Made by a program: the position numbers and the translations under genes. A stretch of 55,898 nucleotides of DNA from an uncultured Jannaschia sp. (GTDB taxonomy: Bacteria; Pseudomonadota; Alphaproteobacteria; Rhodobacterales; Rhodobacteraceae): positions 1-55,898 of the forward strand of contig NZ_CANLTR010000020.1 of assembly GCF_947494055.1 (NCBI RefSeq). Reading direction: 5' to 3'. Shown here in pieces: positions 21,505 to 32,507 of this stretch (its first letter is position 1; every line of letters begins with the position of its first letter). The notes beneath the pieces are model-generated. The model did no database searches. It was not told the origin of the DNA and worked only from the letters and a program-made list of their open reading frames with translations.

Positions 21505-21680
21505 CGCTGACTCCCCTCTCATCTGTGCAGGCCAAAAACCGTATCGGGGACCGGCCATTGCTTTCCCGCGGCCCTGCAAGACCAGGGGGCCTGCGGCCCG
21601 ATCCCCGCCGGAGGGTGGCATAGGACAGCACCTCCCGGGAGACGGTCTGCGCGGGGCGGACGTCCCGCGGGAAAGATACA
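21505..21680 (-). ncRNA. Candidate bridge RNA, IS110 copy 1
   Basis: This is the non-coding leader between the recombinase start and the element end, about the size of known IS110-group bridge RNAs (177 nt in IS621). In the recombinase sense it holds AGGCCCCCT (complement of 21584-21592), which equals the flank AGGGGGCCT at 21681-21689 read on the other strand. After a CCCTG/CAGGG hairpin comes GGGAAAGCA (21559-21567), which equals the flank of insertion A. A second part contains GATAC (21541-21545) and ACAGATG (21520-21526), matching the right end GATACA and the left end CATCTGT of the element. Fold and processing are not tested. Confidence 0.65.
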
Positions 21681-21683
21681 AGG

Positions 21684-21695
21684 GGGCCTTTTTTC
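21684..21695 (+). terminator. Right half of the cassette terminator split by element B
   Basis: GGGCC followed by TTTTTTCG continues exactly as in 636-647. Without its left arm it can no longer fold as a terminator, so transcription from element B could enter ardC copy 2. Confidence 0.55.
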
Positions 21696-21732
21696 GTGGT
21701 GGATTTTCACCCCGGAGAAAGGACCCGGACCG

Positions 21733-22677
21733 ATGGCCAGCACGCAAAAACTCGACCCCGCCACGGAGATCACCAACGAGATCATCGCCCTACTGGAGAG
21801 AGGCACGATGCCCTGGCGGCAGCCGTGGAAGATCGCGGGCGGCGGCGTACCCCTGCGCCACAACGGCGAGCGGTATCAAGGCATCAACGCCTTCCTGCTC
21901 GGCCTGCGGTCGACGATGATGGGCTACAGCTCGCCCTACTGGATGACGTTTGCTCAGGCGAAGGCCCTCGACGCGAGTGTCCGGAAAGGAGAGCGGTCCT
22001 CTATCGTCGTCTACTACGGCACCGCCAAGAAACGCGGCGCGGAAAAGAGCGATGAAGGCAGCGATGCCGGTGGCGAGGACGACGGGCGCGAAGGCGGCAG
22101 CTACCGTTTCCTGAAGTCCTACCGGGTCTTCCACGTCAGCCAGATCGAGGGGTTGGATGCCTCCTACCACCCCGAGCCCGAGGGTGATCCGAGCGACGGT
22201 CCAACGATGGACCCGGACGCCCAAGCGTTCTTCGACGCAATCGACATCGACGTGCGCTACGGCGGGGACCGCGCGTGCTACATCCCGTCTCTCGACCAGG
22301 TTCACATGCCACCGCTTTCCCGGTTCGAAAGCGCGGGCGCATTCATGTCTACCCTGACCCACGAGATGTCTCACGCCACGAAGGCAAAGCACCGACTCGA
22401 TCGCAGCTTCGGCGTGTCCAGCTTCGGCAACGAGGCATATGCGAAGGAGGAGCTCGTGGCATGCGTAAGTGAGGCGCTGATGGGTCAGCGTATGGGGTTC
22501 TATGCCGATCACATCGACAATCACGCGGCTTACATCTCGTCGTGGATCCAGGTCCTCAAGACCGACACCCGGTTCCTGTTCACCGCGGCTGCCCACGCGC
22601 AGCGGGCCGTGGACTTTCTCATCGCGGCGTCGGAAGCCGGCACGAAGGCGAAGGAGGCGACCCATGAGGCAGCGTGA
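21733..22677 (+). CDS. ardC: ArdC-type antirestriction protein, copy 2
   Basis: 314 aa, nearly identical to copy 1 (684-1628), with the same PWRQPW ssDNA-binding segment and HEMSH zinc site. Nucleotides from about 22018 to 22310 are identical to copy 1, whereas both sides differ at many third positions. The upstream leader (GGTGGATTTTCACCCCGGAG) is also identical to copy 1. The gene keeps an intact ribosome site although its upstream terminator has been replaced by element B. Confidence 0.9.
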
Positions 22678-29761: not shown

Positions 29762-31387
29762 ATGCTTGATGCCGCGTCCGAGATCGCCGTGTTACGTGCC
29801 GCACTCGCGGTATCGGAGGCCCGTGCAGAGACCGCCGAGATCGAACTGGCGCAGGTCCGGGCAGTCGTCGGGGCGTCCGAGGCGATGATTGCGCATCTCA
29901 GGCTCGAGATCGCCAGGCTGCGACGGGAGCAGTACGGCCAAAGCTCGGAGCGACGGGCGCGCCTGCTCGACCAGTTGGAGTTGCAGCTCGAGGAACTCGA
30001 GGCCGCCGCGACCGAGGACGAGATCGCTGCGGAGAAGACGACAAGGACAATCCCGGTCGCCGGCTTCGACCGTCGCCGCCCGGCTCGCAAACCCTTCCCG
30101 GAGCATCTGCCGCGCGAGCGCGTAGTGATCGAGGCACCCACGGCCTGCACCTGCTGCGGTTCCGACCGCATCGTGAAGATGGGCGAGGACATTACCGAAA
30201 CGCTGGAGGTCATTCCGCGGCGGTGGAAGGTGATCCAGACCGTCCGGGAGAAATTCACCTGCCGCTCTTGCGAGAAGATCTCCCAGCCGCCGGCACCCTT
30301 CCATGCGACGCCGCGAGGATGGGCGGGGCCGAACCTGCTGGCGACTATCCTGTTCGAGAAGTTCGGTCAGCATCAGCCCCTGAACCGGCAGGCGGAACGC
30401 TATGCCCGGGAAGGCGTGGATCTCAGCCTCTCGACCCTGGCCGACCAGGTCGGCGCCTGTGCCGCTGCGCTTGAGCCCCTTCACAGGCTGATCCGCGAGC
30501 ATGTCTTGGGGGCGGAACGGCTGCACGGGGACGACACCACGGTGCCGCTGCTCGCGAAGGGCGGAACGAAGACGGCCCGGCTCTGGACCTATGTCCGCGA
30601 TGACCGGCCCTTCGCCGGCGGCGCGCCGCCCGCGGCATTGTTCTACTTCTCGCGAGACAGAGAGATGGCCCACCCCAATCGGCATCTCACAGGATGGCAG
30701 GGCATCCTCCAAGCCGATGCCTATGGCGGATACAACGATCTCTACCGCGGCAATCGCGATCCCGGTCCGGTGAGTAGCGCACTGTGCTGGAGCCACGCCC
30801 GCCGGAAGTTCTTCGAACTGGCCGACATCAGGGGAAATATCCGGAAGGGGAAGCACGCCCATGATATATCCCCCGTGGCGTTGGAGGCAGTGACGAAGAT
30901 CGATGCCATCTTCGACGTGGAGCGCGGCATCAACGGTCTGGACGCCGCGGCGCGGCTCGAAGCGCGGCAGCGCCTCGTCCGGCCGCTGGTCGACGACCTC
31001 CATGACTGGATGCGCGCCGAACAGGGCACGATGTCCAGGCACAATTCCGTCGCCAAGGCGATCGCCTACATGTTCAAGGCGAACCGCTGGGAAACCTTCA
31101 CCCGCTTTCTCGACGACGGCCGGATCTGCCTGACGAACAACGCGGCCGAACGCGCCCTGCGCGGCATCGCCCTCGGTCGGAAGTCATGGCTCTTCGCCGG
31201 ATCCGAGCGCGGCGGCGACCGCGCCGCCTTCATGTATTCCCTGATCGTTACCGCGAAGATGAACGACATCGATCCCCAGGCATGGCTGGCCGATGTTCTC
31301 GGCCGGCTGCCCGACATAACTGCTTCGCAAGTGCCAGACCTGCTCCCGTGGAACTGGCGAACCTCAGAGCATCGCCAAGCCGCCTGA
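29762..31387 (+). CDS. tnpC: IS66 transposase TnpC
   Basis: 541 aa, intact. N-terminal coiled coil (about 1-75), then the zinc-finger part CTCCGS ... KFTCRSCEKIS (about 125-180), followed by the DDE domain. The latter has HGDDTTVPLLAKGGTKTARLW, a QADAYGGYNDLY aspartate and NNAAERALRGIALGRKSWLF near the end. The C-terminus is the typical IS66 DDE_5 tail (VPDLLPWNW). Full gene set and ends suggest a functional IS. Confidence 0.93.
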   Translation: MLDAASEIAVLRAALAVSEARAETAEIELAQVRAVVGASEAMIAHLRLEIARLRREQYGQSSERRARLLDQLELQLEELEAAATEDEIAAEKTTRTIPVAGFDRRRPARKPFPEHLPRERVVIEAPTACTCCGSDRIVKMGEDITETLEVIPRRWKVIQTVREKFTCRSCEKISQPPAPFHATPRGWAGPNLLATILFEKFGQHQPLNRQAERYAREGVDLSLSTLADQVGACAAALEPLHRLIREHVLGAERLHGDDTTVPLLAKGGTKTARLWTYVRDDRPFAGGAPPAALFYFSRDREMAHPNRHLTGWQGILQADAYGGYNDLYRGNRDPGPVSSALCWSHARRKFFELADIRGNIRKGKHAHDISPVALEAVTKIDAIFDVERGINGLDAAARLEARQRLVRPLVDDLHDWMRAEQGTMSRHNSVAKAIAYMFKANRWETFTRFLDDGRICLTNNAAERALRGIALGRKSWLFAGSERGGDRAAFMYSLIVTAKMNDIDPQAWLADVLGRLPDITASQVPDLLPWNWRTSEHRQAA

Positions 31388-31394
31388 TCGCGGC

Positions 31395-32282
31395 CTACGC
31401 CGGATGCTTACGTCGGAGCCGACCATAGAAAGCCGCGAGATCACGGTTCCAGCGGACCGCGACCACGGTCGCCATGTAGAGCATGCTGCGCGTAGCGACG
31501 CGTCCGCCGCGGATCGTTCGTCGTCCCCTCATCGTGCCGGAATCCCGGTTCATCGGTGCAACGCCCGCAAGCGAGGCGATCTGCACCGCGGTCGCAGAGC
31601 CCATCTCCGGCATCTCGGTCAGCAATGTCGTGGCGGTGACGGCACCGATCCCCGGAATGGAGGTCAGGATCTCGTATCGCCGGCGGATATGCGCGTCGGA
31701 TCGGATCAGGTCGAGAAGCGTCGCCTCGAGTTCGTCGTACTGGGTCCGGCATAGGGTAAGCCTCGCCTCGATTTGACGTTGGACGATCTCCACGGTGGTC
31801 TCGGATAACTGCTGCTCGAGCATGACCCGCTGCGCCACGAGCTGGCGCCGTGCCACAGCGATCTCGCCGATCCGTGCCATGATCTCGGAGGGCGGTTCGC
31901 TGGGTCGAGGCCGCATGGTTGCCCCGAAACGCGCCAGAACTTCGGCGTCGATCGTGTCCGTCTTGGCGAGCCGTCCGATCACGTCGGCAAAGCGTCGTGA
32001 GCGGTAGGGATTGACCACAGCGACTTTGATCCCTGCCGCGTGCAGGGCAAGCCACGCCGCTCGGTGATATCGCCCGGTTGCCTCCATCACCACGATGGAT
32101 GGAAAGACCTGCGCAAGCTGCTCGCCTAACGTGGCAAGGCCGCATGGGTCATTGCGAACGCTAAACTTCGTACCGGTGGGATGGATGAAGACGTCGAGTG
32201 TTGCTTTGCTGACGTCAATGCCGACGACGGAGGCATTCCTGTCCTCGTGCTCGTTCGGTGCCTTTCCTTGTATTCGGGACAT
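31395..32282 (-). pseudogene. IS110-family recombinase copy 2, N-terminal part (split by IS66)
   Basis: From ATG 32282 ([20 protein letters not shown]) the frame matches copy 1 through the DEDD domain and most of the transposase_20 domain up to LAAFYGRLR, near 31430. It then enters IS66 sequence and stops at 31395. The DEDD residues ([20 protein letters not shown]) are all present. The rest is at 28765-28882. The element is therefore immobile unless complemented by copy 1, which is intact. Confidence 0.88.
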
Positions 32283-32458
32283 CGCTGATTCCCCTCTCAT
32301 CTGTGCAGGCCAAGAACCGTATCGGGGACCGGCCATTGCTCCATCGCGGCCCTGAAAGACCAGGGGGCTTACGGCCCGATCCCCGCCGGAGGGTGGCATA
32401 GGACAGCACCTCCCGGGAGACAGTCCGCGCGCGGCAAACGTCCCACAGGAAAGATACA
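32283..32458 (-). ncRNA. Candidate bridge RNA, IS110 copy 2
   Basis: Homologous to the leader of copy 1 along its length. In the recombinase sense it reads AAGCCCCCT (complement of 32362-32370), and its own flank is AGGGGGCTT (32459-32467). After the CCCTG/CAGGG hairpin it reads GATGGAGCA (32337-32345), and the left flank of element C is GATGG-AG-CA (23079-23087). The first differs from copy 1 at the same base at which the two flanks differ. CATCTGT (32298-32304) and GTATC near 32320, matching the element ends, are conserved. Confidence 0.68.
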
Positions 32459-32507
32459 AGGGGGCTTCCTTTCGTTTGGATTTGGACCGGACGGAAAGGA
32501 CGACACC

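Follow-up and report, generated by a model that had tools for sequence, protein, structure and literature searches.

Two elements of the IS110 group lie on a 55,898-nucleotide stretch of DNA from an uncultured Jannaschia sp. (contig NZ_CANLTR010000020.1, positions 1 to 55,898; this whole stretch is the window below), and the leaders of their recombinase genes raise the question of whether each element encodes an RNA that specifies its own insertion site. Matching of guides to targets is already known in this group: the available parts of PMC11208160 report covariation over thousands of IS110 elements, and those of PMC11187229 describe natural reprogramming between relatives (ISEc11 versus ISXne4). 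In IS621 and other IS110-group elements, as set out in the available sections of PMC11208160 and PMC11208158, the left end (LE) encodes a two-loop bridge RNA, in which a left target guide (LTG) comprises seven bases and a CT core and a right target guide (RTG) runs from the core onward, accompanied by a donor loop, a DEDD recombinase and a junction of right end (RE) and LE that serves as donor. The window elements share all these features, and also resemble the seekRNA of ISEc11 and ISEc21, which in the available text of PMC11187229 guides both target strands. We consider it highly probable that the two leaders encode bridge RNAs, that their elements form part of a Rhodobacterales clade of the IS110 group, and that the mechanism and the unit-transposon features are those laid out below. 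Four kinds of sequence evidence bear on this: matches between guides and flanks, covariation in the RNA, covariation of the donor guide with the element end, and the comparison of occupied with empty sites.

The copy 1 recombinase is an intact open reading frame (ORF) of 324 amino acids on the minus strand (20530-21504), and that of copy 2, on the same strand, is split by an IS66 insertion into a 5' part (31395-32282) and a 3' part (28760-28882); both contain PF01548 (DEDD_Tnp_IS110) and PF02371 (Transposase_20) above curated cut-offs. A covariance model of the leader RNA, R1, matches the minus strand at 21478-21613 in copy 1 (135.8 bits, ending at recombinase codon 9) and at 32256-32391 in copy 2 (129.1 bits), both matches being members of its training set. 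The LE is 176 nt long. The copy 1 LTG, AGGCCCC plus the core CT (21584-21592, minus strand), equals the flank at 21681-21689 in 7/7 positions; exact string search with the coordinates re-read places AGGCCCCCT on the minus strand at both 21681 and 21584. In copy 2 the LTG reads AAGCCCC plus CT (32362-32370, minus strand) and equals the flank at 32459-32467, with AAGCCCCCT at 32459 and at 32362. Thus, the base that differs between the leaders differs likewise between their own flanks, and every string was located by exact search where the original prediction had placed it. The left-guide strings recur at 632 and 2011, which are unoccupied paralogs of the two sites.

The right target guides tell a more uneven story. 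That of copy 2, GATGG-AG followed by a "handshake" CA (32337-32345, minus strand), agrees in 5/5 positions with the flank at 23079-23085 (GATGGAGCA on the minus strand at 32337 and on the plus strand at 23079). The proposed identity with the left flank of the element surrounding copy 2 (element C) stands for GATGG-AG, but the trailing CA belongs to the element and not to its flank. The copy 1 guide, GGGAA-AG plus CA (21559-21567, minus strand), matches in 5/5 positions the left flank of a third insertion, A (GGGAAAGCA on the minus strand at 21559 and on the plus strand at 3236). With GGACA, the flank of its own element B, it agrees at just 3/5 positions, or 1/5 with the core read as TT; this mismatch, noticed earlier, is real. 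In PMC11208158, as far as its available text describes, handshake bases follow the core of the RTG and pair with positions 6-7 of the donor; here the first handshake base is C, opposite donor G7, in 12/13 aligned leaders. A donor loop, which goes beyond the layout first described, is also present: the left donor guide of copy 1, ACAGATG (21520-21526, minus strand), equals the right-end terminus ACAGATG-CT, and its right donor guide (RDG) GATACAAG (21489-21496, minus strand), within codons 3-6, is the reverse complement of the LE terminus CTTGTATC. No Rfam family reached its gathering score in the window, where four sub-threshold matches (E up to 10) lie around copy 1.

Comparison with empty sites delimits the elements. 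Self-comparison of the window revealed two parallel gene arrays, array 1 at 1-3240 and array 2 broken by elements B and C; the same genome has a third array, on contig C31, that lacks both interruptions and against which array 2 can be traced back to 17716. Element B (19321-21680, minus strand; LE at 21680, RE at 19321-19410) is bounded by the correspondence of 287-631/631-1659 with 18975-19319/21680-22708 in the window and by the intact site in C31. Element C (23086-32458, minus strand; 9.4 kb with its IS66 insert) is a clean insertion against both window positions 1947-2207 and C31 positions 9117-9386. The CT core stands at both ends of C (read as AG at 23084-23085 and 32459-32460). The right end of B departs from it in a TT/CT shift: it reads CAGATG-TT-CT-TGTCC and is two bases longer than other right ends, and a TT core is here not separable from an end two bases longer. 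Insertion A is represented by a right end at 3241-3340 (minus strand; 108.8 bits with R2, a model of the right end in whose training set it is a member); in the window, left-end profiles pick up the ends of B and C and no other, so that none was found for A. The right end of A (window 3163-3242) interrupts an ORF that is intact in C31 (166 amino acids, no Pfam match), and the remainder of the interrupted gene does not align to the window, therefore pointing to a rearrangement between 3.3 and 17.7 kb. Beside this right end, window positions 3241-17716 hold a copper/sulfur island encoding DUF411, a metal-type E1-E2 ATPase, a multicopper oxidase, a sulfate permease and DUF6691.

The perfect fit of both copy 1 guides to sites 18.4 kb apart (LTG at 21681, RTG at 3236), better than their fit to its own 2.4-kb element, raises an alternative in which copy 1 works with the right end at 3241, the segment 3241-21680 with its copper/sulfur island is the functional unit, and the shifted right end of B, with its right target (RT) agreeing at 3/5 positions, is a decayed leftover. 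We consider this rather unlikely. Array 2 runs unbroken against C31 over 17716-19315 (91.5%) and resumes at 21681; therefore, B inserted there on its own. Moreover, GGGAA is a common RTG, found in 5/13 aligned leaders (copy 1, L018, L019, L020 and L021), so the match to A may be a coincidence. As an account of the insertion history, a single element from A to copy 1 was rejected, because array 2 reaches back to 17716; it is kept as a competing view of which DNA copy 1 might mobilise at present.

Relatives of the window copies were sought in species genomes, one scan of which returned 62 loci. Over the matched part, 15 of these (L008-L021 and L024) show 44-67% identity, and two complete plasmids hold relatives (L101 and L102; 56% and 53% protein identity) adjoining a DUF736 gene. 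A DNA search of plasmids returned 3 records covering 8-36% of the query; among 20 genomes of the genus the leader matched 2, the window's own and one with a 49-base fragment; viral contigs yielded 2 distant relatives. R2 matched 10/394 genomes of the family, the window's own included. The eight genomes or records from which the loci came gave 13 R1 rows and 19 R2 rows, or 17 R2 places once two opposite-strand duplicates were merged. In the two plasmids and genome G416 the right ends are short or missing, and R2 had no match there. No left end was detectable for the right ends of genomes G066 and G310 in the stretches examined, nor in L219 (contig C125 1-18000) for the first right end of L009 (8813); the solitary right end L170 (G310:C20), again with no left end seen, shares its contig with a beta-lactamase-family ORF (Pfam). 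By R1, distant Rhodobacteraceae IS110 elements (about 36-44% protein identity) have the same RNA architecture.

The leaders can be aligned from the left-end core into the coding sequence, and thirteen (copies 1 and 2, L008, L009, L012, L016-L021, L101 and L102) entered the structure alignment; outside it are L006 (truncated left end), L011 (distant), L013 (deleted) and L221 (found later). A covariance-model fold had been suggested as a check; the alignment shows two internal loops with conserved pairing, and among the folds of the leaders it alone gave a structure with support. The named two-loop structure has 23 pairs in four helices, with 97.0% of cells paired and 8 pairs changed on both sides; shuffles reached the observed value in 0/500 cases for four measures and 1/500 for a fifth, and slid controls pair at 28-67%. 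RNAalifold, unprompted, recovered all four helices with one-column shifts. Each loop, target and donor, contributes a stem and, between its two guides, a hairpin. The hairpin of the donor guides contains the start codon and the preceding purine-rich stretch (the ribosome site, by eye); its support is conservation only, because no pair in it changed on both sides. The donor-loop stem, closing on codons 7-8, includes two pairs with changes on both sides. The right end, in turn, forms a long conserved hairpin. As a putative sigma-70-like promoter rebuilt at the RE-LE junction, the joined ends mostly read TTGNNN, then 16-17 nt (19 in B), then TATCTT or TATCTC.

Across the relatives, own pairs of guide and flank exceeded non-own pairs in both a close and a distant set, a comparison that the original prediction had asked for as a check. 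In the close set (12 leaders plus L221, all with a left flank), the left target (LT) agrees with its own LTG at a mean of 5.69/7 positions versus 3.71/7 for non-own pairs, a difference reached in 0/200,000 permutations uncorrected for relatedness, and still in 0/200,000 after removal of two near-duplicates (11 leaders). The agreement is 7/7 in copies 1 and 2, L020, L101 and L102, 6/7 in L012 and L016, and 5/7 in L008, L009, L017 and L018; L021 was omitted because its flank is another right end. On the right, among seven testable pairs, the guide agrees at 5/5 positions in copy 2/C, L012, L016 and L101 and at 4/5 in L102. L011 (48% identity), compared by eye only and outside all counts, shows 7/7 on the left and 4/5 on the right. 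The distant set began as 25 R1 rows, reduced to 22 by omitting the three weakest and to 19 by setting aside 3 in which no left end was found; with an automated register visibly off by one in a few rows, own pairs agree at 4.58/9 against 3.23/9 (p = 1.5 × 10−5, or 4 × 10−5 for the 18 rows left when one duplicate is removed).

Could such agreement reflect shared GC-rich sequence or common descent, and not guidance? The targets are alike, being arms of GC-rich hairpins, and several leaders are closely related, which the permutations leave uncorrected. Nevertheless, the permutation retains the sets of guides and flanks and still gives the above values in both sets, and the right donor (RD) and RDG letters change together in three classes, so we regard this explanation as very improbable. 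The cleanest guide-target case is that of L012 and L016, two loci of one genome with shared guides: their sites agree over the seven LT and five RT positions (GCGCCGC-CT and CT-CTCCT) and differ beyond. Same guides in unrelated flanks had been named as the finding that would speak against guidance; the single instance in which this could be examined, L012 and L016, shows the opposite. Together, the covariation, the guide-flank statistics and the Pfam membership of the recombinase bear out the layout first proposed, with 7+CT+5 guide positions and the target loop first.

A distinctive feature of this clade is the position of the donor guide. The RNA structure and the model extend to codons 8-9, such that the donor loop covers the ribosome site, the start codon and the first eight codons of the recombinase gene, with the RDG in codons 3-6. 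The left donor guide CAGATG is invariant (13/13 aligned leaders), and the RDG covaries with the element end in 12 leaders (G-U allowed in L018 and L020), the RD/RDG pairs being TGTAT/ATACA, TTTAT/ATAAA and CTTAT/ATAAG or ATGAG. Thus, the letters past the left-end core (TGTAT, TTTAT, CTTAT) change with codons 4-6 (ATACAAG, ATAAAAG, ATAAGAG or ATGAGAG), and in L019, where the core is TT, the guide has AA at the corresponding place. Residue 4 is Ile in 10/13 aligned leaders and its codon is ATA in 10/10 of these; elsewhere ATA accounts for 20/452 Ile codons in 24 hand-picked window ORFs and 5/120 in codons 9 onward of ten relatives. Residue 5 varies among Q, K and R along with the letters of the left end. 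With the donor guide inside the ORF, element-end recognition would therefore constrain the protein. Among the 22 distant R1 loci, a script found an ORF start in 14 and none in 8; relative to the model end, 6 starts lie 1-10 nt past, 4 at −2 or −5, 1 at +77 and 3 inside. Of the last, L125 (ATG at −26) resembles the close clade, and L138 and L139 (GTG/TTG) are doubtful; these outgroup counts of start codons are weaker on re-check.

The second departure is the presence of genes between the end of the recombinase and the right end, observed at six loci (B, C, L009, L012 and those on contigs C95 and C18) and spanning about 1-5.7 kb with ORFs. B carries one ORF of 196 amino acids (19499-20089) with no Pfam match. 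The 5.7 kb of C encode a LuxR-type regulator (23409-24494), LysE (24510-25163), an ankyrin protein (25543-27525) and an ORF with no Pfam match (27688-28659). C95 holds an operon read as arsR, ACR3 (Pfam SBF), arsC and arsH (Pfam FMN_red), C18 a PNPOx-type gene, L012 two GNATs and L009 a HAD hydrolase. In L016 and L019 a shortened recombinase is followed by the right end, and no right end was found in the available DNA of L008, L013, L017, L018, L020 and L221. The IS66 element within copy 2 (28883-31411, by Pfam) is bordered on both sides by GTCGGAGC (28875 and 31412), as for an 8-bp target duplication. In and beside a second IS66 transposase region (Pfam, 32710-33324) lies a short palindromic repeat in three copies (33293-33357, 33527-33590 and 34195-34238), possibly a miniature element; contigs C95 and C56 of this genome contain stretches like it.

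Beyond these, L209 constitutes, on its sequence, one clear unit with both ends and without a recombinase: its LE (4667) and RE (11836) enclose a trace of a recombinase tail and about 7 kb of genes for (by Pfam) a redoxin, DsbD_TM, two cation efflux proteins, a p450 and signal peptidase II, with no R1 match there. The same cargo occurs at 96-98% identity beside right ends in L210 (G414:C62) and L214 (G415:C16), whose left ends lie outside the stretches examined; the right ends are 85-94% alike. Between L209 and L214 the cargo is 97% identical over 6.9 kb, and their DNA past the right end cannot be aligned; L209 and L210 have a common paralogous flank, which lies about 600 bp further off in L210. 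The candidate second unit of this type, in L021, is weaker on re-check: a 64-nt left end, an alpha/beta hydrolase gene and AAGTCAGATG-CT are followed directly by the left end of a complete leader. This stretch (L021 8713-9890) is a possible head-to-tail junction of a recombinase-less unit with a complete leader, i.e., an RE-LE junction in place. L016 has a second left end in ardC-leader-like sequence (by eye), followed by genes for DUF411 and an E1-E2 ATPase with an HMA domain, and no right end was found for it; this gene pair is common to it and the copper/sulfur island of the window.

A simpler account would be that these are ordinary IS110 elements with a mobile unit still of about 1.2 kb, their "cargo" having come later by unrelated insertions or rearrangement. 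It draws on the plasmid relatives L101 and L102, which are without cargo and have the right end just past the recombinase stop, on the later IS66 insertion into C, and on the right ends of L209 and L214, which are less alike than their cargo. We nonetheless judge it unlikely: C is a clean insertion whose two ends enclose 5.7 kb of cargo and whose guides fit at 7/7 and 5/5 positions, five more loci have genes before the right end (B, L012, L009, C95 and C18; two with recombinase fragments), and the L209/L214 cargo is 97% identical while the DNA past the right end does not align.

Several observations weigh against reading these elements as bridge-RNA-guided unit transposons. First, the training sets of both R1 and R2 include part of their matches, and many contigs stop before any right end. 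Second, some guides fit poorly: the LTG at just 4/7 in L221 and 3/7 in L019, the RTG at 2/5 in L009 and, as noted, in copy 1/B at 3/5 (1/5 in the TT register). By eye, the donor guide of L221 fails and its frame looks broken. Third, single-sequence folds of both window leaders are no better than shuffles (z of 0.21 and 0.62), the putative promoter at the joined ends is weak (6-8/12 consensus letters), and a promoter scan of the L021 joined end reported none. Fourth, on the side of the cargo, C95 and C18 retain only a 3' fragment of the recombinase, L101 and L102 carry no cargo, and the contrast of 97% in the L209/L214 cargo with 85% in the right ends suggests that right ends may have been exchanged; the right end of L021 is known by its last letters only, and neither right-end profile detects it.

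The sites that these elements enter appear to be hairpins resembling terminators, the label being given because a T-rich stretch follows each hairpin. Folding of five intact sites gave z-scores of −3.4 for the C site in the window, −3.7 for its counterpart in C31, −1.8, −1.2 and 0.3 (600-650), so that 2/5 of the predicted hairpins lie clearly beyond shuffles. On the plus strand of the window, the unoccupied paralog of the B site (600-650) lies upstream of an ardC-like gene, its hairpin no more stable than shuffles, and that of the C site (1985-2030) is a terminator-like hairpin (z = −3.4). Once inserted, the element leaves the inner hairpin on one side and the outer 3' arm with the T run on the other. 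Similar hairpin-plus-leader blocks stand ahead of successive array genes, one of them ardC-like, at window positions 600-650, 1985-2030 and 2690-2740.

Set against what has been described, the clade departs from IS110-group norms in two respects. The recombinase as sole gene, with a long non-coding LE and a short RE, is the arrangement of L101 and L102 but not of B, C, L009, L012, C95 and C18; several elements here have genes between recombinase and RE, unlike those in the available text on IS621 and the IS110 group. Likewise, the bridge RNA there lies within the non-coding LE, whereas in this clade the donor loop extends over the start of the recombinase gene and its first eight codons. For ISEc11/ISEc21, the available text of PMC11187229 has cargo placed by the authors as movable and does not mention natural passenger genes or RNA-gene overlap. 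In the open-licence literature, with bioRxiv outside its scope, we found no natural passenger genes, recombinase-less IS110 units or overlap of bridge RNA and ORF. The available portions of PMC11578231 deal with a different arrangement, in which ISPye46 arrays look like composite transposons, those of PMC7371123 assign passenger genes to Tn3 elements, and those of PMC3189936 and PMC12045711 hold nothing on IS110 passenger genes or RNA-ORF overlap. Within the scope of that search, two observations, both made on sequence, look new: passenger genes that occur naturally alongside a recombinase-less unit, and a donor guide located in the recombinase gene.

By analogy with IS621, the DEDD/serine recombinase would excise the element as a circle, and synapsis would be followed by recombinase strand exchange at CT. 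One RNA might serve twice, as guide when folded and as message when unfolded, since the donor loop spans the recombinase start. With passenger genes between recombinase and right end in six loci, the elements could act as unit transposons, and a recombinase-less unit with both ends would need help in trans. A more ambitious model, which we advance tentatively as possible but short of probable, is that RNA-guided unit transposons naturally spread arsenic, copper/metal and other modules between terminator sites of plasmid-type arrays, that guide-less units may be moved in trans via any matching right end, and that the donor guide lies in the ORF so that guide folding and translation would exclude each other.

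IS110 elements have been described as minimal insertion sequences and are under development for programmable DNA insertion. If the above model is true, a natural clade moves multi-kilobase modules, and bridge recombination would be seen to handle cargo in evolution. Whether metal-resistance modules are spread among Rhodobacterales by single RNA-guided recombinases would then become a testable question.

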